NCBI GenBank assembly: GCA_903824045.1
Contig: CAIJVD010000026.1
Coordinates: forward strand, 1-64,000
Direction of reading: 5' to 3'
DNA length: 64,000 bases
Source of the DNA: an uncultured Chlorobiaceae bacterium
GTDB lineage: Bacteria > Bacteroidota > Chlorobiia > Chlorobiales > Chlorobiaceae
Part shown: positions 1 through 13,891 of the stretch, in pieces
Position numbering within the stretch: position 1 is the stretch's first letter
Layout: each line of letters opens with the position of its first letter
Made by a program: the position numbers and the translations under genes
The notes under the pieces: generated by a model
What the model was told of the DNA's origin: nothing
Databases searched by the model: none
Seen by the model: only the letters and a program-made list of their open reading frames with translations

Positions 1-630
1 GACAAGAACGGCCTGACGGCAACCTTGACCTCGACCGGCGAGAGCACACTTGCTGCGGGTGGAGATCTTACGGTCAGTGGTACATCCAACGACCTGACAA
101 CGACGACCACCAATGGCGGCGGCACCACCTTCGGTACCACCGCACTCACCGGGAACCTGACCACCACGAGCACTGGTGCGGTAACTCAGACCGGCCCACT
201 CACTGTTGCTGGCACAACGAGCATCACAGCCGATGGTAAGGATATTAGCCTCACCAACCCCGACAATGACTTTGTTGGTGATGTTACGGTAACGGGTAGC
301 AACGTGAGCATTACCGACAAGAACGGCCTGACGGCATCCTTGACCTCAACCGGCGGCGGCACGCTCACCGCAGGGGGAAATCTTGAGGTCACCGGTACCG
401 CCAAAGACCTGACGACAACCACCACCAATGGCGGCGGCACCACCTTCGGTACCACCGCACTCACCGGGAACCTGACCACCACGAGCACTGGTGCGGTAAC
501 TCAGACCGGCCCACTCACTGTTGGTGGCACAACGAGCATCACCGCCGATGGTAAAGACATTAGCCTCAGCAACCCGGGCAACGACTTTGTTGGCGGTGTC
601 ACCCTGGCGGGCGACAATATGGACATCGTG
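1..630 (+). repeat. Tandem 315-bp coding repeats in exoprotein gene
   Basis: The sequence beginning GACAAGAACGGCCTGACGGC at base 1 recurs at base 316, giving a period of 315 bp (105 codons, in frame). Within the unit, bases 106-208 are identical to 421-523 over 103 bp, while flanking parts differ at scattered positions. The second unit decays after about base 600. Further copies are likely upstream of the window. Confidence 0.85.
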
Positions 631-1374
631 GCGTTGCGTCATTTGACCTTTGATAACCTCACGACTACCGGCAACATGATTGCAACAGCAGGCAAAGACC
701 TGGTTTTTACTGCCGGTATGGTGGAAGGTAATCTCACAGCAACCAGCACGGGTGGTAATATCACCAAAACCACTGTCGTCAAGATCGGCGGAACAAGAAC
801 TCTGTCAGCGATTGCCGGCACTCTCAATGGCTTTTTTACAGAACTGCCGAGAAATATCATACCATCCGCAAGCCAGACAACATCGACCTCACAGGCTTCT
901 AATACCGTTGCGACAGTATCCCCCATGTTCAGCGGCACAGAAAACGCTGTCGTTGCAGGTGGAACTGGTGGAGCAGGTGGAGCAGGTGCAACTACTGCAA
1001 CTGGTAGAACAGCGGGAACTGGTGGAACCGCTGGAGCAGCCACTGACATCACGTTAGCAAGTAAAACTGACGGAGGAAGTACTGGAATCATCGTAGGCAA
1101 GCCGCTTGTGATTACCGCAGTTGCGAATTCGTTCTTCATCTATGAGCTTCCTCAGTCTACCTTTGTGGCAAACAATCCGAAGGCAACCTTATCGGTCGAA
1201 GTGCGATCAGTTAACGGTACGGCAATGCCGGAATGGATGTCCTTTGATGCTGCCAGGATGGTTATTACCGGGACTCCGCCAAAGAACGCCAAAGGGGAGT
1301 ACCGTGTAGAACTTGTCGCCAGAGACCAGTTTGGGGGCAAAGCCAGTACCGTGCTGGTGGTAAGGGTTGGTTAA
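1..1374 (+). CDS. TpsA-like repeat-rich exoprotein, C-terminal part (5' end outside window)
   Basis: The reading frame is open from base 1, so the start lies outside the window and about 457 residues of the C-terminus are visible. The first ~200 residues are Thr/Gly/Ser-rich and carry two copies of a 105-residue unit typical of filamentous-hemagglutinin-like beta-helix exoproteins (units such as LTTTTTNGGGTTFG and ISLTNPDNDFVG). The units are 315 bp apart in DNA and include a 103-bp identical run. A Gly/Ala-rich low-complexity stretch follows (GGTGGAGGAGATTATG, around bases 958-1040). The last ~80 residues (after IIVGKPLVITA) look like a putative Ig/cadherin-like domain with the ending MSFDAARMVITGTP. 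A TpsB transporter gene starts 22 bases downstream, so two-partner secretion to the cell surface or medium is inferred. It is probably an adhesin or surface-structure protein; the ligand is unknown. Confidence 0.8.
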   Translation, partial: DKNGLTATLTSTGESTLAAGGDLTVSGTSNDLTTTTTNGGGTTFGTTALTGNLTTTSTGAVTQTGPLTVAGTTSITADGKDISLTNPDNDFVGDVTVTGSNVSITDKNGLTASLTSTGGGTLTAGGNLEVTGTAKDLTTTTTNGGGTTFGTTALTGNLTTTSTGAVTQTGPLTVGGTTSITADGKDISLSNPGNDFVGGVTLAGDNMDIVALRHLTFDNLTTTGNMIATAGKDLVFTAGMVEGNLTATSTGGNITKTTVVKIGGTRTLSAIAGTLNGFFTELPRNIIPSASQTTSTSQASNTVATVSPMFSGTENAVVAGGTGGAGGAGATTATGRTAGTGGTAGAATDITLASKTDGGSTGIIVGKPLVITAVANSFFIYELPQSTFVANNPKATLSVEVRSVNGTAMPEWMSFDAARMVITGTPPKNAKGEYRVELVARDQFGGKASTVLVVRVG

Positions 1375-1396
1375 CAATATTTTATAATGTCATCTC

Positions 1397-3103
1397 ATGA
1401 ACTATTCAATGTCGCTGTCGATAAAAACAGTTTTGCTGGCTTCACTTCTGGCCATTCCTGCACCTGTCTGTTTTGCTGCCGATATTCCGGATTCAGGCCA
1501 GCTGCTCAGGCAGATCGCTCCCGTCCCTTCACCAGTGCAGAGAGAGTCCCCGAAAGCGCTCCCGCAGCCTGCCGAACAAAAGCCGGAAGTCTCAACAGGC
1601 GCAAAGGTCAAGGTTGCAGGATTCACCTTTAGCGGCAACACGCTCTTTTCGAGTAATGAGCTGTCGGCGCTGATGTCGGGTTATCTTGGCCGGGAGCTGA
1701 CCTTCAGCGAGCTTGAGGTTGCCGTCGCTGACATCACCAAGCTCTATCGTACAAAAGGGTATTTCCTCGCATCGGTGGTTATTCCTCCGCAGTCAGTCAA
1801 GCCGGGTATGCCACTTTCCATCAATATCATAGAAGGTACTCTTGAGAGGGTTCGTATTGAAACGACCCCTGTTGAGCCGGGCATAAAGAAGTGTGTCCTG
1901 CGAGGGTTTGCCAACAGAATTCCGGTTGGAAAACCGGCCGAGGAGAGCGCCATCACCTCAGTGGTCATGAACATCAATGAGTTGCCCAATATCTCTTCAC
2001 GCATCCTTCTCGAGCCCGGCATCCGTCCCGGTACAACCCAGGCAGTGCTCGAAGTTACTGAGGGCCGCCCTTACGGTTTTTCGCTTGATTCCGACAACTA
2101 TGGAAACGCTTCCACCGGCCGGTACCGTGTTGGCGGAGGCGTTGAACTCTACTCTCCGCTGCACATTGGCGACCTATTGAATCTGCGTTTCCAGAGCTCT
2201 ACCAATGGTGACCTTGAGAGCTTGCAGACTGGCTATACGGTGCCACTCTTGCCTGACGGGACAAAGGCCGGGATCACCTATAGCCATGTAAATTACAGGC
2301 TCGGCGCACAATTTGTCGACCTGAACGCCTATGGCAAGGCTAACAGCCTGAATCTCACGCTGACGCATCCGCTCATCAGACAAAGAGATCTTATTCTGAA
2401 TGCCACCCTCGGAGGGGAGGGGCAGCTGCTGGATGACCGTAACGAGAAAGACGGTTCAAGAAACTATCGGCATACCAGATCGGTGCAGGCTGGTATCTCA
2501 GGCATGCAGATGGACTCCTTTTTGGGTGGAGGCACGACGGTGTTTTCTGTCGGCGTGGTTGTTGGCCGTCTCGGAATTGATGATACCGATGCACTTGCCA
2601 ACGACCAGTCATCTTCAGGGCTTGCAACAAACGGCGGCTATAACAAGATGAGCATGAGTATGTCGCGCACCCAGACGATCAGCAGTGGGCTCTCGCTCTA
2701 TGCTGGCGCCTACGGTCAGTTGGCCGACAATAACCTGAGCAGCTCAGAACAGCTCTCTCTTGGCGGTCCATCAGGGGTTCGTGCTTGGCAGCCAGGTGAC
2801 TCCAGTGGAGACCGGGGTTTGGTGGCAACTGCCGAACTGCGATACCTGTTCACGAAGGCGGGCTTTATTCCCGGTTCACTGCAAAGCTCTCTGTTTGTAG
2901 ACCACGGCTACAGCCTTCTTCACCTCAATCCGCGTCCTGATGCGGGAGATAACACCCGGAGCCTCACCGGTGCCGGAGCTGGCATAAAATGGTTTGCCGG
3001 TAACAACCTCAGCGTGCAGACAAGCTGCGCCTGGAAACTCGCAGGCCAGAGCGGGCCAACCAATACTCCAATGCTTTATATCCAGGCGGTCACCCGGTTT
3101 TAA
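1397..3103 (+). CDS. TpsB outer-membrane transporter (ShlB/FhaC/HecB family)
   Basis: This 568-residue protein is the expected length for a TpsB secretion pore. It has an N-terminal signal peptide (hydrophobic stretch ending PAPVCFA), a Pro/Gln-rich linker, a POTRA_2-like domain at about residues 70-150 (FTFSGNTLFSSNEL ... YRTKGYFLASVVIPPQ) and a long ShlB-type beta-barrel ending in a C-terminal phenylalanine (QAVTRF), the usual BAM signal. The barrel contains the motif GGPSGVRAW, matching the conserved VRGY/VRGF-type loop element of the family. POTRA domains recognise the TPS signal of the partner exoprotein in the periplasm. The gene begins 22 bases after the exoprotein stop, so the two are probably one transcript and a secretion pair. 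An ATG at 1409 is an alternative start; no strong ribosome binding site separates them. Confidence 0.9.
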   Translation: MNYSMSLSIKTVLLASLLAIPAPVCFAADIPDSGQLLRQIAPVPSPVQRESPKALPQPAEQKPEVSTGAKVKVAGFTFSGNTLFSSNELSALMSGYLGRELTFSELEVAVADITKLYRTKGYFLASVVIPPQSVKPGMPLSINIIEGTLERVRIETTPVEPGIKKCVLRGFANRIPVGKPAEESAITSVVMNINELPNISSRILLEPGIRPGTTQAVLEVTEGRPYGFSLDSDNYGNASTGRYRVGGGVELYSPLHIGDLLNLRFQSSTNGDLESLQTGYTVPLLPDGTKAGITYSHVNYRLGAQFVDLNAYGKANSLNLTLTHPLIRQRDLILNATLGGEGQLLDDRNEKDGSRNYRHTRSVQAGISGMQMDSFLGGGTTVFSVGVVVGRLGIDDTDALANDQSSSGLATNGGYNKMSMSMSRTQTISSGLSLYAGAYGQLADNNLSSSEQLSLGGPSGVRAWQPGDSSGDRGLVATAELRYLFTKAGFIPGSLQSSLFVDHGYSLLHLNPRPDAGDNTRSLTGAGAGIKWFAGNNLSVQTSCAWKLAGQSGPTNTPMLYIQAVTRF

Positions 3104-4591: not shown

Positions 4592-5619
4592 TCAAAATAC
4601 AAGACCTGACCCCAGGAATATTTCGATGAGTTTTTTTGCTCCGCTGAAGGGGCTCAGGGCGGAGGAGAGCACCTGCTCTTCAATTGCCGGTTTTGCCTCT
4701 GCGACTCGGGGATGGGAGTAGAACTCTTTTTTCAGCATCTCTTCAAGTACGGTGTTGAGGAGGTGGTTTAGTTGCTCCCTGCGCCGTTCCTCGAGAGTGC
4801 CGTTTTTGCGCATCTCCTCGAAGCCGGCTGCAATATCCTGCCATACTTCACTGATGCCAAGGCCTGTGATGGCGGAGGTCAGGAAGACCTTCCGTTTCCG
4901 GTTTGGGTGTTTTGCCGGAAGAATATGGAGTGCGGCTTCAAATTCAGCTTTCGAGATGGTGGAGATTCCGCTCTGCTGGCCGTCGCTCTTGGTGATGGCT
5001 ATGGCATCGGCAATCTCCATGATGCCTCGCTTGATGCCTTGCAGTTCATCTCCGGAGCCGGGGAGCATGAGGAGCAGAATGAAGTCAACCATGGTGTCGA
5101 CAACCACCTCCGATTGACCGACCCCTACGGTTTCAACAAGAATGACGTCATAGCCTGCGGCTTCGCAGAGGAGTATGGTTTCATGGGTTTTAGGCGAGGT
5201 GCCGCCGAGATAGCCCGATGATGCGGTCGGCCGTATGTAGGCCTCCTTTCGGGCAGCAAGCTTCTCCATCCTGGCCTTGTCACCCAGGATACTCCCTCTG
5301 GACTGCCGGCTGCTGGGGTCGATGGCAAGGACGGCCAGAGTGAGCCCCCGGCTGATGATCTCCTCTCCAAGTGCTTCGATAAGGGTGCTTTTGCCGGCTC
5401 CGGGTGAGCCGGTTATGCCGATGCGGATTGCGGAATGTTTTGTTGCAAGGCAACGGTCCAGAATGGCATGAGCTCTCTCTTCATGCTCCGCTTTCTGTGA
5501 CTCGACGAGGGTGATGGCGCGACTGAGCATCTGGCGGTCTCCCTCCATGATCCCCCTGACTACAGCATCGACATCCCCGTCGCGCCACTTTTTTCTGCCG
5601 GCCGGCTCCTGGTGCGCAC

Positions 5620-5623
<4 letters not shown>
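4592..5623 (-). CDS. meaB: MeaB/ArgK-family GTPase, chaperone of methylmalonyl-CoA mutase
   Basis: A 343-residue G3E-family GTPase with Walker [13 protein letters not shown] (about residue 70), the ETVGVGQSE switch segment and the base-recognition motif ITKSDG. Proteins of this family (MeaB, human MMAA) gate cobalamin loading and protect methylmalonyl-CoA mutase from inactivation. The assignment as mutase chaperone is supported by position: its ATG overlaps the stop of the mutase large-subunit gene by four bases, so translation is probably coupled. It is the last gene of a six-gene minus-strand operon. Confidence 0.93.
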
Positions 5624-7748
<2,125 letters not shown>

Positions 7749-7752
<4 letters not shown>

Positions 7753-9527
7753 TGCACTCCGGTTTTGCGTTGGAAGGTGGAAAGCGTCTCAAGGACGTCG
7801 ACGCCGGTATAGAGGAACCCTTCAAGCCCGGCAGCAGCGAGCTGTTCTGACTCTTTTGGAGGCCTGCCTGCCATCAGGAGAAGTATTGATGGATTGAGAG
7901 CCTTGAGGGATCGGCACATTGTTTCGGCTCTGCTCACGGGATCTTTTTCGGCAATACAGAGCACAACAAAAGCCGGGCTCCTCTCCAGGGCTCTCTTGCA
8001 GGAGCCCTCTTCAGGCGAAAGCGCCTCGCAGCCCGATATTTCGAAACCTCCGCATTTGAAGAGCTCCTCGCAGAATCCTGCCTGCCTTTGGCTTATGGTG
8101 GGGTCGCCAACCATCCAGATAAAGGCCGCAGGTGCACTGCCATGCTGCTTTCGATGGGAGAGCGTTTTCAGGCGCAGCAGCTCAAAGGCGGCGCTCTCAC
8201 TCGCGTCGGAGAGTGATGAGAGTTTTTCCTCGAGCAATCCGAGGTTTCTCTCCTGATCCGGGGTTAACGGCCAGGTGTAGCGGTTGACTCCAAGCAGTGT
8301 CTTTTTGCGCTTTACGATCTCCTTCTGACGTGCTTCCGCCGATTCACGAGCAAGCCGTTCGATCATTCCACTCCTCTTTGCTGCCGGAAGTCCGCCCGAT
8401 TTCTCGATCTGGCAGAAGAGACCCCAGGCTGATGCAGCAAGTTCGCGCGTTAGGGTCTCGATATAGTTGGAGCCGCCGGCAGGATCGACCACGCGGTCAA
8501 GCAACCCCTCCTCCTTGAGCACCAGATGGATATTGCCGGTGATGCGCCTTGCAACTTCAGGCTCAACCGAGAGTCCGTCGTCGAACACACGGAGCTGCAG
8601 GGTCTCATAGCCGCCGAGGATGGCCGAAACAGCCTCTGAGGTGAGGCGGAGAATATTGGTGTAGGGATCAAGCAGGGAGCGGTTCCTGGCGGAGGTTCTT
8701 GCAAAGAGTCGGGGCCGTGGGGTGCCAAGTGGAGCACCATAGGCTTTCAGAAGATGGCCAAGGAGGTAGCGCAGCGCTCTTGGCTTGGCAAGCTCGGTGA
8801 AGTGGCTGGAACCAACAGAGAGGATAATTTCCATTGACGTTGCAGCCTCACCCGCAGTGATGCCGGCCTGAAGAAAGCGGTGGATGAGGTCGCTTGCGCC
8901 GGCAAGCGCATAGGCGATCTCCTGTGAGGCGGTTGCGCCCTCTTCATGGAACGGGGTCGCATCGATCGAGAGCAGCGTGAAGCGGGGGTGTGAATGAATA
9001 AGTGCTGCGATATCGCGATCAACTTCGGGGTTTGTTTCGGGAAGCGGGGCCAAAAGGGCCCCTGAAGCATCCTGAAACCCTTTAAGTGAACTGAGTCTCT
9101 CAAACAGTTGAGCCGCAGGCGGCAGCGCTCCGGAAAAATAGAGCGAGATGGCCGGAAGTTCAATGCCTGCCAAAAGGGCGCCCAGATGTTCGGCAGTGAA
9201 GAGGGCGGGGTCGGTGAAGCAGAACTCAAGAGCACGGGCATCCTGTTTCAGGTAGCGCAAGGCCTCCGCGTTTGCCTGGGCGGGATTATTTACCGTGACG
9301 AGGAAGCAGCTTTTCCAGGAGTTGATGGAGCGGTTCAGGGGAATCGGGAGGTGGTGCACTTTTTCTGCAGATGAATACCAGGGCTCAAGCTTGAAGCCCT
9401 CCGGCGTATGCCAGATGATGCTTTCGTATGGGGTATCGTTGAGTTCGCTGGTGGCTTTCGCCTTCCACTCATCCCGGGTGATTGGCGGAAACTCGCTGAA
9501 AAGTGAGTCGGGCCGTGAATCTGTCAT
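7749..9527 (-). CDS. mutA: Methylmalonyl-CoA mutase, small (non-catalytic) subunit
   Basis: A 592-residue paralogue of the large subunit. It keeps the barrel fold (for example [16 protein letters not shown] near residue 350) but the C-terminal B12-like domain lacks the DxHxxG histidine motif, as expected for the structural beta subunit. It forms a heterodimer with the large subunit, whose ATG overlaps this gene's stop by four bases. The C-terminal domain retains only general Rossmann features ([17 protein letters not shown]). It lies 42 bases downstream of the fused carboxyltransferase gene, in the same operon. Confidence 0.93.
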
Positions 9528-9569: not shown

Positions 9570-11363
9570 CTATGCCTTGCTTTTTAGGCCATGTGACTTA
9601 TGCTGGTCGATGATCTCCAGAATTTCATGCTTCATATTCCAGGGGAGCGCGGTTTTTGTGGCAAATCCCTTCTGCTGCAGCCACCAGGTTGTCTGGAAAT
9701 CTTTTGTCGTGGGTTTGCCGGTGTACTGCTCGATGACCCGCTTGCCCGAGAACCCGATATTTCCGGCATTGTGCTCAAAGATTTTTATCCCTCTCGATCC
9801 AACCCCGATTGCCACGCCTCCGAGAGTCGGGTCGGTGATGATGGTGATGACCGGAAGCCCGGCTTTCTCGACACTCGACAGGGCAACATGGACCTTTGGA
9901 AGGCCGACCATAGACGAGCACCCTTCGTGCATTCTTGCGCCTCCGCCGGTTGCCTGAAGGACAAGAGGTTTGCCTTCCTCGATCGCAATCCTGCTTGCGC
10001 GCCAGATCTTTTCGGCCGTTGACATGCAGAATGAGCCCCCAAGAAAGTTGAAGTTGGTTGCGCAAAAGACAATCGGCTTGCCCTCAATGGTCGCGTTTCC
10101 GGTAATGAGTGATGATGCTGCACCGGTTTTTCGCTGTGCCTCTTCGATCTTTTTCTCGTAGTCGGGAAACCCGAGGATATCTTTGTCGACAATGTGGCGG
10201 GTATTTTCGTGCTCAATGAATGAGCCTTTGTCGAGCACCATGTCGATGTAGTCGTGGGCTGTCAGGCGGAGGTAGCGGTGGCCGCAGGTTTCACAGACAA
10301 AATTATCTGCCAGCAGCTTCCGGTAGAGTACCGGATCGAGAACCTTTTTGCCGGTGCTGTCGACACAGTTTCTGTGGCGGGCAACAAACATCGCTTTCTG
10401 CGGCTTGGGAATGAAATAGGTAACCGGCTTTTCGAAGGTTGCAATTTTCTCTTCGGTGATCTCTTTCCACTGCCCGATCTTTTCCCACCGTTTGACTCTT
10501 CGGGAGAAGACCTCTCTCTTCGGAATCCGGCTGAGCTCTTCAAGCCATGTAAGCATCGAGCTCTTGAATGAGTTCATCGCAGCTTCAGGAAAACGGTGTG
10601 CCGGTCCGTCAGGCTCAAGGATGAGCTCGTCAATAATTCCGTTTTTCAGGGCCTCTCTTGCCGTTATCTGCGAGATCTGTGCGGCCAGGTTGGCCTTCTC
10701 TCTCGAGCGGAAGAGGATGGAGGAGCATGCTTCGGGTGAGATGACGAGATAGGTGGCGTACTCCATGGCGAGCACGACGTCACACCCGGTAAGTGCAATG
10801 GCTCCGCCGCTGCACCCTCGGTTGATGATGACCGAGAGGGTTGGCATTCGGGATTCCGCCAGAGACTGCATGCAGCGGCCGATCTTCCATGCGATGCCGC
10901 CCCCTTCGGACGACTCTGTTGGGTCGGCTCCTGCTGTATCGATAACCGTGATGATGATGCGCTTTTCCAGTTCGGCAATTTCAATGGCCTGGATCGCTTT
11001 TTCAAAAGCGGCGGGAGTCGGCATGCCCTGATTCCATTTCGCTACCTGTTCAGGGCTCTTCATGAGCTTGCGCATGACCGCAAAATCGGAGGTTGGCCCC
11101 GACTGCTGGCCGATGAGCATGACCGGAATGTAGTGTTTTCCGGCCTTCATGGCGGCTCGGTGGGTCTGGATAACGCAGCTTCCGGGCAGGTCGTTCTGCA
11201 GGCACTCTTCGGGATACTCAAATACACTGAGGTAATCGAGATGTTTTGGTCGCTCGGGGTGAAAGGAGAGCTGATACTTTTCGTATTCTGTCAGCTTTTC
11301 GATGCTCTGGCGCGAGTAGCTGAAATTCTCTCTTTTCTCAAAAGGCAGGTAAAAATGTTTCAC
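9570..11363 (-). CDS. Fused AccA-AccD type carboxyltransferase (acyl-CoA carboxylase CT component)
   Basis: A 597-residue two-domain crotonase-fold protein. Residues ~30-290 align by eye with the AccA alpha subunit (HPERPKHLDYL; oxyanion loop GCSGGAIAL near 183; ISPEACSSIL near 209; PDGPAHRFPEA near 251). Residues ~345-590 resemble the AccD beta subunit (CETCGHRYLRLTAHD, TGGGARMHEG, DPTLGGV, IGFSGKRVIEQ). The order is alpha then beta, opposite to PccB-type subunits. The AccD four-Cys zinc finger is incomplete: Cys357 and Cys360 are present but only one upstream Cys (333) is visible. It would transfer carboxyl from carboxybiotin to an acyl-CoA; the operon context points to propionyl-CoA giving methylmalonyl-CoA. 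No biotin carboxylase or biotin carrier gene is in the window, so partners must come from elsewhere. Substrate is inferred, not shown. Confidence 0.85.
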   Translation of the reverse strand: MKHFYLPFEKRENFSYSRQSIEKLTEYEKYQLSFHPERPKHLDYLSVFEYPEECLQNDLPGSCVIQTHRAAMKAGKHYIPVMLIGQQSGPTSDFAVMRKLMKSPEQVAKWNQGMPTPAAFEKAIQAIEIAELEKRIIITVIDTAGADPTESSEGGGIAWKIGRCMQSLAESRMPTLSVIINRGCSGGAIALTGCDVVLAMEYATYLVISPEACSSILFRSREKANLAAQISQITAREALKNGIIDELILEPDGPAHRFPEAAMNSFKSSMLTWLEELSRIPKREVFSRRVKRWEKIGQWKEITEEKIATFEKPVTYFIPKPQKAMFVARHRNCVDSTGKKVLDPVLYRKLLADNFVCETCGHRYLRLTAHDYIDMVLDKGSFIEHENTRHIVDKDILGFPDYEKKIEEAQRKTGAASSLITGNATIEGKPIVFCATNFNFLGGSFCMSTAEKIWRASRIAIEEGKPLVLQATGGGARMHEGCSSMVGLPKVHVALSSVEKAGLPVITIITDPTLGGVAIGVGSRGIKIFEHNAGNIGFSGKRVIEQYTGKPTTKDFQTTWWLQQKGFATKTALPWNMKHEILEIIDQHKSHGLKSKA

Positions 11364-11392: not shown

Positions 11393-11800
11393 CTAATGAC
11401 CTTTCTCTGCAAACTCAAGTAATACCCTGTTGGTCTCTTTGGGGTGAAGAAAGACAATCTTCTTGCCGCCAGCCCCCTCTTTAGGTTCTCCAAGAGGCTT
11501 GATGCCTTCGCCAAGAAGGCGAGCGGTCTCCTCTGAGAGCGAGTCGGTCTGCAAGGCAATATGGTGCATTCCCTCTCCGTTTTTGGCAAGGTATTTTGCG
11601 ATGGCACTCTCTGGGCTCATCGGTTCAAGAAGTTCGATCTTCGTCTCGCCCACAGGAATGAATGCAACGCGAACATGTTCCGAGGCAACCTCCTCAACCC
11701 TGATTGAGGCAGGGTCGCACCCGAGAACTTTGCAGAATGTCTCGAGTGCGCCTTCAAGGTTCTGGACAGCGATGGCTATGTGGTCAATCTTGCTGATCAT
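11393..11800 (-). CDS. mce: Methylmalonyl-CoA epimerase
   Basis: A 135-residue vicinal-oxygen-chelate protein of the usual epimerase length, with metal-ligand motifs in order: IDHIAIAVQNL at the N-terminus, IELLEP near residue 60, GEGMHHIAL near 85 and VLLEFAE at the C-terminus. It converts (S)- to (R)-methylmalonyl-CoA and so links a propionyl-CoA carboxylase to the mutase. It starts 8 bases after the acyl-CoA synthetase stop and is followed after 29 bases by the carboxyltransferase gene. Position and sequence agree on the function. Confidence 0.93.
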   Translation of the reverse strand: MISKIDHIAIAVQNLEGALETFCKVLGCDPASIRVEEVASEHVRVAFIPVGETKIELLEPMSPESAIAKYLAKNGEGMHHIALQTDSLSEETARLLGEGIKPLGEPKEGAGGKKIVFLHPKETNRVLLEFAEKGH

Positions 11801-11808
11801 TTTGTTTG

Positions 11809-13713
11809 TTATGGGCGTTTTGAAGCATAGCCGATTGTTTTCAGCGCGACACTGATCTCATCGAGAATCGCCGGATCGTCAATTGTTGCCGGCATGGTGT
11901 ACTCCTCGCTGTTTGCGATTTTGCGCATGGTTCCGCGAAGGATTTTGCCGGAACGGGTCTTCGGCAGGCGATCGACAATGACCGCGCTCTTGAACGAGGC
12001 GACCGGCCCGATGTTCTCCCGGACGTATTCGATGACGTGCTTGATGATCTGGTTGTGGGGTGTGTCGACGTTGTTTTTCAACACCAGGAAGCCGAGCGGC
12101 ACCTGGCCTTTCAGGTCGTCGTGAACGCCGATGACAGCGCTCTCTGCCACGTCGGGATGCTCGCAGAGCGCCCCTTCGATTGCGCCGGTCGAGAGGCGGT
12201 GGCCGGCGACGTTGATGACGTCATCGGTACGTGCCATGATATGGATGTAGCCGTCATCATCGATAAAGCCGGCATCGCTCGTCTGATAGTAGCCGGGGAA
12301 CTGCTTCATATAGTTGTCTACAAAGCGGTTGTCGGCTTTCCAGAGCGTAAGCATGGTGCCTGGAGGAAGCGGCAGCTTGACGACGATGTCGCCCATCTCT
12401 CCGGCCGGAAGCTCCTCCATCTCCTGATTGACCACCTGCACGTTGTATCCGGGAACGGCTCTTGATGCCGATCCGTACTTGATCGGGCCTGGCTCGATGC
12501 CCTGACAGTTTGCGGCAATAGCCCATCCGGTTTCGGTCTGCCACCAGTGGTCGATAACGGGAACCTTGAGCTTCTCCTCGGCCCATCTGACGGTATCAGG
12601 GTCGGCACGCTCTCCGGCAAGGAAGAGTGTGCGGAAATTGGAGAGGTCGTACTGCTTGATATAGTGGCCGTTCGGATCCTCCTTCTTGATCGCCCTGAAA
12701 GCGGTTGGTGCGGTGAAGAGCACCGCGACGTTGTACTCGCTGATGATTCTCCAGAAGGTTCCGGGATCGGGCGTGCCGACAGGCTTGCCTTCAAAGATCA
12801 GTGTGGTGCATCCGTAGAGCAGGGGAGCGTAGACGATATAGGAGTGCCCGACCACCCAGCCGACGTCACTCGCGGCCCAGAATACCTCTCCCGGCTCGAC
12901 GTTGTAGACGTTCTTCATGCTCCATTGCAGGGCAACCATGTGGCCGCCGTGGTCGCGCACGATACCCTTCGGCTGACCGGTCGTGCCCGAGGTGTAGAGA
13001 ATATAGAGGGGGTCGGATGATTCGACCTGCACACACTGAGCCGGTTCGGCTCCGAGGAGTGACTGGTTCCAGGTCAGGTCGCGCTCTTCGTTGAGTTCGG
13101 CCTTCAGCTGGTCGCGCTGCTTGATGATGCAGATTTCCGGCTTGAAGTGGGCAAGTTCGATGGCGAAGTCAAGCAGGCGCTTGTAGTCGATAATCTTGCT
13201 GTGCTCGATGCCGCATGATGCGGAGATGATCACTTTTGGCTTGCAGTCGTCAATTCTGATGGCAAGCTCGTGGGAGGCGAACCCTCCGAACACGACAGAG
13301 TGGATGGCGCCAATTCTTGCGCAGGCAAGCATGGCCACAACCGCTTCCGGAATCATCGGCATGTAGATGATGACACGGTCTCCCTTGCGAACCCCTCTCG
13401 ACTGAAGCGCTCCGGCAAAAAGAGCGACGATATCGCGGAACTCACGGTAGGTATAGCGGAGCTTGGTGCCGGTTACCGGGCTGTCAAAGATCACAGCTGT
13501 TTCGTTCCCTCGTCCTTCATCCACATGGCGGTCGAGCGCATTGTAGCAGGTATTGGTCATTCCCCCGGAAAACCAGCGGTGAAAGGGCGGGTTGCTGCTA
13601 TCAAGCACCTTGTTCCATTTCTTGAACCAGTGGAGCTTCTCTGCGGCTTCGCCCCAGAACGATTCCGGGTTTTCGATGGAGTGTTTATAGACGGTATTGA
13701 AGGACTGCGACAT
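11809..13713 (-). CDS. prpE: Propionyl-CoA synthetase-like AMP-forming acyl-CoA synthetase (PrpE/ACSS3 type)
   Basis: An ANL-superfamily ligase of about 634 residues. It carries the AMP-binding motif YTSGTTGQPKGIVRDHGG, the DHWWQTETGW motif that shapes the acyl pocket, and the C-terminal RTDDVINVAGHRLSTG hinge plus the acetylation-type lysine motif PKTRSGKILR. The block VDEGRGNETAVIFDSPVTGT and the RDHGGH segment resemble PrpE/ACSS3 more than standard Acs. The frame is open to an ATG at 13815, but the ATG at 13713 (MSQSFNTVYK) is preferred because family similarity begins there and GGGGG precedes it; the upstream 34 residues look non-homologous. It is the first gene of the propionate operon, giving propionyl-CoA from propionate. 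Activity on acetate cannot be excluded. Confidence 0.88.
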   Translation of the reverse strand: MSQSFNTVYKHSIENPESFWGEAAEKLHWFKKWNKVLDSSNPPFHRWFSGGMTNTCYNALDRHVDEGRGNETAVIFDSPVTGTKLRYTYREFRDIVALFAGALQSRGVRKGDRVIIYMPMIPEAVVAMLACARIGAIHSVVFGGFASHELAIRIDDCKPKVIISASCGIEHSKIIDYKRLLDFAIELAHFKPEICIIKQRDQLKAELNEERDLTWNQSLLGAEPAQCVQVESSDPLYILYTSGTTGQPKGIVRDHGGHMVALQWSMKNVYNVEPGEVFWAASDVGWVVGHSYIVYAPLLYGCTTLIFEGKPVGTPDPGTFWRIISEYNVAVLFTAPTAFRAIKKEDPNGHYIKQYDLSNFRTLFLAGERADPDTVRWAEEKLKVPVIDHWWQTETGWAIAANCQGIEPGPIKYGSASRAVPGYNVQVVNQEMEELPAGEMGDIVVKLPLPPGTMLTLWKADNRFVDNYMKQFPGYYQTSDAGFIDDDGYIHIMARTDDVINVAGHRLSTGAIEGALCEHPDVAESAVIGVHDDLKGQVPLGFLVLKNNVDTPHNQIIKHVIEYVRENIGPVASFKSAVIVDRLPKTRSGKILRGTMRKIANSEEYTMPATIDDPAILDEISVALKTIGYASKRP

Positions 13714-13891
13714 GGATGTGACCCCCAGAAAAATAAGTTGATGAAATACGGGAGGAAAAGCCAGCTGTAAAAATGGGAAAGTCGTTTGTGGGGTTGATGG
13801 TAGCTCTATCGACACAATGAGTTAATGTTAACAAAAAATACCCGTCAGCGCAACGAACAATTGTTTCTTCACCCTTGAGTTTTGAGTTCGT

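Follow-up and report, generated by a model that had tools for sequence, protein, structure and literature searches.

A fused AccA-AccD carboxyltransferase in the propionate operon of Chlorobiaceae, probably acting on propionyl-CoA

Here we describe a carboxyltransferase that joins an AccA-like and an AccD-like domain in one chain, found in the 64-kb stretch of Chlorobiaceae DNA that we analysed (the window). Its gene lies between the epimerase and mutase genes of an operon with the order prpE/acs-epi-fusion-mutA-mutB-meaB, and the protein probably serves as carboxyltransferase in a propionyl-CoA carboxylase that relies on the shared AccBC. We infer the substrate, direction and carrier choice of the fusion, together with its zinc binding and oligomeric state. 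The operon genes are as follows.

4592..5623, minus strand: meaB, mutase-associated GTPase (PRK09435, 447 bits, cut-off 329)
5620..7752, minus strand: mutB, methylmalonyl-CoA mutase large subunit with B12 domain (PRK09426, 1277 bits, cut-off 876)
7749..9527, minus strand: mutA, methylmalonyl-CoA mutase small subunit (TIGR00642, 275 bits, below the cut-off of 617; syntenic)
9570..11363, minus strand: fused AccA-AccD carboxyltransferase (ORF of 597 aa with a GTG start)
11393..11800, minus strand: methylmalonyl-CoA epimerase (TIGR03081, 131.4 bits, cut-off 114.95)
11809..13815, minus strand: propionate/acetate-CoA ligase of PrpE/Acs type (PRK10524, 771 bits, cut-off 955; PRK00174, 663 bits, cut-off 657)

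The epimerase stop and the fusion start are separated by 29 nt. An earlier, sequence-only reading of this DNA had placed the fusion between epimerase and mutase genes with no biotin carboxylase or carrier nearby. The placement is borne out by the above-cut-off epimerase match and by the mutA, mutB and meaB neighbours, and neither a biotin carboxylase nor a carrier gene adjoins the fusion. In the ligase ORF the ACAS_N domain begins at aa 41, and the true start is probably about 34 codons inside the ORF as listed. A promoter and terminator scan gave signal no better than that of shuffled sequences. Elsewhere in the window, positions 25-3103 hold the C-terminus of a repeat-rich surface protein, then an ORF similar to two-partner secretion transporters.

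The domain order of the fusion, A then D, is the reverse of the PccB order. Pfam assigns aa 16-297 to ACCA (195 bits) and aa 378-555 to Carboxyl_trans (105 bits), while NCBIfam gives AccA at aa 17-301 followed by AccD at aa 343-590. In a profile comparison, aa 118-272 of the A half correspond to PccB 340-500, and about aa 362-555 of the D half to PccB 32-213. All three agree with the earlier claim of an AccA-like N-terminus and an AccD-like C-terminus; by profile, the halves come out as AccA and then AccD, not as PccB in standard order. The fusion therefore differs from PccB/MmdA-type proteins, in which the AccD-like domain comes first and the AccA-like domain second, and from single-chain AccADCB, as it has the A and D domains only. 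It scores well below the AccA equivalogs NF004344 (189.8 bits, cut-off 357) and TIGR00513 (169.9 bits, cut-off 319) and the AccD equivalog TIGR00515 (175.1 bits, cut-off 317), and the Neomarinimicrobiota fusions likewise fall under the NCBIfam AccA cut-offs. The biotin-independent malonate decarboxylase subunits MdcD/MdcE were rejected as a match, at 58 bits against a cut-off of 278 (TIGR03133) and 25 against 237 (TIGR03134). Within the fusion we located these features.

9594..10337, minus strand: AccD-like domain, aa 343-590 (TIGR00515, 175 bits; Foldseek matches to AccD chains)
9816..9821, minus strand: Gly515-Gly516 of the AccD half, oxyanion-hole position (invariant in 48 sequences; aligned to AccD TDPTMGGV)
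10284..10376, minus strand: putative HCCC zinc site, H330-x2-C333-x23-C357-x2-C360 (fixed spacing in 90/90 full-length fusions)
10473..11318, minus strand: AccA-like domain, aa 16-297 (PF03255, 195 bits; structural match to AccA)
10803..10808, minus strand: Gly186-Gly187 of the AccA half, oxyanion-hole position (SGGA in 90/90; aligned to AccA SGGA)

The AF2 model of the fusion has a pLDDT of 88.1 and a pTM of 0.89. Its A half matches E. coli AccA (2f9y_A) with a Z of 31.7 by VIA-align, AccA chains in general lying near 32, and its D half has Foldseek matches to the AccD chains 2f9i_B and 2f9y_B. PccB-type chains superpose well on the model only one domain at a time. Taken with the structural matches and motifs, the two crotonase-like domains and the oxyanion glycine pairs place the protein in the carboxyltransferase superfamily.

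The D half lacks the two CxxC pairs of the AccD zinc ribbon. C357 and C360 correspond in the alignment to the second CxxC of AccD, the first being absent; all 90 fusions instead carry one CxxC and an invariant HxxC. Because this HxxC occupies the place of the missing pair, the motif resembles a complete HCCC site more than a half-lost one, with zinc binding predicted from the sequence pattern. The single CxxC of the earlier description thus stands, and its half-lost motif does not. Invariant departures from AccA and AccD cluster near the active-site motifs, at N181, R182, C184, T149 and W159, and in the D half at M447, G473, C482, I519, G520 and R524. We dropped an equivalence between R182 (Glu in AccA) and a conserved PccB arginine, as the pairing in the profile alignment is ambiguous. 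A specificity residue like PccB Asp422 is also not transferable, since that position holds a small residue in AccA-type halves, whether fused or separate.

Trees built for each half group the fusions into a single clade (100/100 support), whose long stem lies apart from the AccA and AccD sequences sampled. This pattern fits an old paralogue that was fused once. Origin by local duplication of the accA/accD of Chlorobiota or Neomarinimicrobiota was rejected, as the fusions fall outside both in trees whose outgroup sampling is small. Among known systems, AccA and AccD of heteromeric acetyl-CoA carboxylase (E. coli 2f9y, S. aureus 2f9i) share the folds and oxyanion glycine pairs and give the best sequence matches, but the fusion differs in its single chain, its H-x2-C-x23-C-x2-C in place of two CxxC, its scores at about half the curated cut-offs and its long tree stems. 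The AccS/AccADCB acetyl-CoA carboxylase of Shewanella oneidensis (PDB 9kkm) has the same A-D order and superposes over 483 residues at 3.2 Å across both domains; however, it spans 1517 aa to the 597 of the fusion, which has no BC or BCCP domains, and is distant in sequence (17% over the alignment). Fused carboxyltransferases of actinobacteria (Pseudonocardia, Collinsella, Nonomuraea) also combine AccA and AccD domains in one chain, but in the opposite order, D then A. The PccB-type beta subunit of propionyl-CoA carboxylase would share the proposed reaction and is distantly homologous to each half, with the order reversed. In the plasmid collection, the matches examined held accA/accD only as separate or D-A ordered genes. 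A literature search of partial coverage for accA/accD fusions linked to propionyl-CoA returned nothing on this family, and an earlier description is possible.

The window's assembly (2.09 Mb, 99.96% complete) groups with the genus Chlorobium. It has a separate accA (475 bits) adjoining accB-accC on contig C8 and a separate accD on contig C13, so the fusion is not the housekeeping acetyl-CoA carboxylase, as it would have been had the genome held no other accA/accD. A PF02785 search found one full biotin carboxylase, the AccC beside AccB. This single clear biotin carboxylase makes the borrowing of AccBC, which the sequence-only reading had suggested, the only visible option. Further ATP-grasp matches on contigs C2 and C24 appear to be carbamoyl-phosphate synthase halves (on C24 by match pattern only); the large subunit is apparently encoded in two pieces, one on each of these contigs (L053 5172-6953; L016). 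Contig C6 holds a cluster of MmdA, OAD-gamma, a carrier and OadB that lacks a biotin carboxylase and is therefore read as a Na+-pump decarboxylase, and contig C1 encodes a PycB/OadA-type protein that includes a biotin domain. The C6 MmdA belongs to the same superfamily as the fusion, likely with methylmalonyl-CoA chemistry as well, and it counts against the proposed role of the fusion in that it could handle methylmalonyl-CoA itself; it differs in having the PccB order plus its own carrier and membrane subunits.

Alternatively, the fusion might make malonyl-CoA, as an additional or conditional acetyl-CoA carboxylase or as a carboxylase that accepts a broad range of acyl-CoA substrates, its operon placement being incidental. 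Both halves are indeed nearer to AccA and AccD than to PccB in sequence. We nevertheless consider this unlikely, given the separate accA and accD, the long stems that set both halves away from AccA/AccD, the invariant substitutions that ring the active-site motifs, an operon order kept across Chlorobiaceae, and an absence of the fusion that tracks absence of the mutase rather than of accA/accD.

Searches for relatives recovered 90 full-length fusions. A contig scan listed 80 of 96 confirmed loci; among those listed, most are from Chlorobiaceae and the rest from Neomarinimicrobiota or unassigned FCB bins. The order acs-epi-fusion-mutA-mutB-meaB recurs in Chlorobiaceae loci with enough flank, except at L082, where extra sequence separates the fusion from mutA. 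The fusion is present in 33 of the 37 Chlorobium-genus genomes and in 0/24 genomes of other families. G011, a Chlorobium-genus genome that is 100% complete, has neither the fusion nor the mutase, and no PccB-type protein either; G018 and G032, less complete than G011, lack fusion and mutase and keep mmdA. For G025, the apparent absence seems to arise because its contig ends inside mutB. By this operon and by co-occurrence, the fusion is coupled to epimerase and mutase. As for biotin carboxylases, of the fusion-bearing Chlorobiaceae tested, G000 (the window's assembly), G003, G020 and G035 have one each, and G001 and G029 have a second of a longer type.

Several further observations concern these loci. 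An apparent frameshift splits the fusion at L113:3368-5135, through assembly error or decay. In L068:7798-11085 and L073:7683-11087, mutA and mutB are merged into a single ORF (1095-1134 aa) in which the catalytic part of MutA runs straight onto MutB, apparently without the MutA C-terminal domain; several other Chlorobiaceae loci have the same match pattern. MutA is 40-61% conserved across Chlorobiaceae loci, far below MutB (mostly 76-90%).

The operon also bears on direction. A decarboxylating or transcarboxylating route from succinyl-CoA through methylmalonyl-CoA to propionyl-CoA, in which a biotin carrier would receive the carboxyl group, as in dark propionate fermentation, would agree with some dark propionate release by green sulfur bacteria (PMC11269200) and with the PycB/OadA-type protein and Na+-pump cluster of the window's assembly. 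It is very unlikely, as the first gene of the operon encodes a propionate/acetate-CoA ligase, the same review reports uptake of labelled propionate, and genomes that lack the mutase still keep the Na+-pump cluster.

In Neomarinimicrobiota, fusion and PccB exclude each other. Of the 199 genomes of this phylum, 33 carry the fusion (full-length in 28, fragmentary in 5) and 90 a PccB-type protein; the two never occur together, and 76 genomes have neither. Fisher's test gives p 3e-10, with neither this value nor the counts adjusted for common descent or for the many MAGs that are incomplete. The mutase is present in 33/33 fusion-bearing genomes. Nearly all of the 76 have it too, and it therefore does not always imply either enzyme. 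Many PccB-type genes there sit within a few kb of a mutase gene, which supports reading the fusion as a replacement for PccB. The fusion itself lies outside the mutase operon in this phylum, with a mutase gene about 8-20 kb off in several genomes, and follows etfB-etfA-Fe-S oxidoreductase in 11/11 loci with enough flank (e.g. L118:2125-7737). Fusion-bearing genomes have one biotin carboxylase each (9/9 tested) and one clear small AccB-type carrier (14/14 tested; G062 adds a contig-edge fragment), and thus the fusion there must share AccBC, if it is biotin-dependent. In the three PccB genomes sampled a second AccB-type carrier is present. Separately, the PccB-type proteins of L153-L156 (G065-G068) are MccB-like, with genes adjoining an HMG-CoA-lyase-like gene; because each of these genomes has a single biotin carboxylase, their methylcrotonyl-CoA carboxylase may also borrow AccC. 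The etfBA neighbourhood and the 76 genomes with neither enzyme count against propionyl-CoA as the substrate. Another acyl-CoA, for example from fatty-acid or branched-chain breakdown, would suit the genes directly upstream at those 11 loci but is most improbable, as odd-chain and branched-chain breakdown themselves give propionyl-CoA, every sampled fusion-bearing genome has the mutase, and the Chlorobiaceae operon includes both epimerase and mutase.

The recurring Chlorobiaceae operon and the mutual exclusion in Neomarinimicrobiota support propionyl-CoA carboxylation as first proposed for this gene, at the level of a predicted substrate. In the pathway we propose, the adjacent ligase would supply propionyl-CoA from propionate, and AccC, the sole biotin carboxylase of the window's assembly, would charge the biotin of a carrier protein, in all likelihood that of AccB. 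Joined in A-D order, the two halves of the fusion would jointly form one carboxyltransferase and carboxylate propionyl-CoA to (S)-methylmalonyl-CoA, which the epimerase and then MutAB with MeaB would take to succinyl-CoA. Labelled propionate is reported to be assimilated by C. limicola, probably via methylmalonyl-CoA (review, PMC11269200). We further think it reasonably likely that the fusions are a distinct propionyl-CoA carboxylase class: an A-D fusion of AccA/AccD lineage with a variant HCCC site that replaces PccB in two phyla and takes a single AccBC pair as donor, leaving one carboxyl-donor pool for fatty-acid synthesis and propionate use.

With scores this far below the curated AccA/AccD cut-offs, naming the fusion an acetyl-CoA carboxylase would likely mislead metabolic models. 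The gene is instead a candidate for the propionyl-CoA carboxylation step inferred in green sulfur bacteria from labelled propionate (PMC11269200). It suggests that propionyl-CoA carboxylases arose from the carboxyltransferase superfamily more than once, and it offers a system in which competition between acetyl- and propionyl-CoA carboxylation for a single biotin carboxylase and carrier could be tested.
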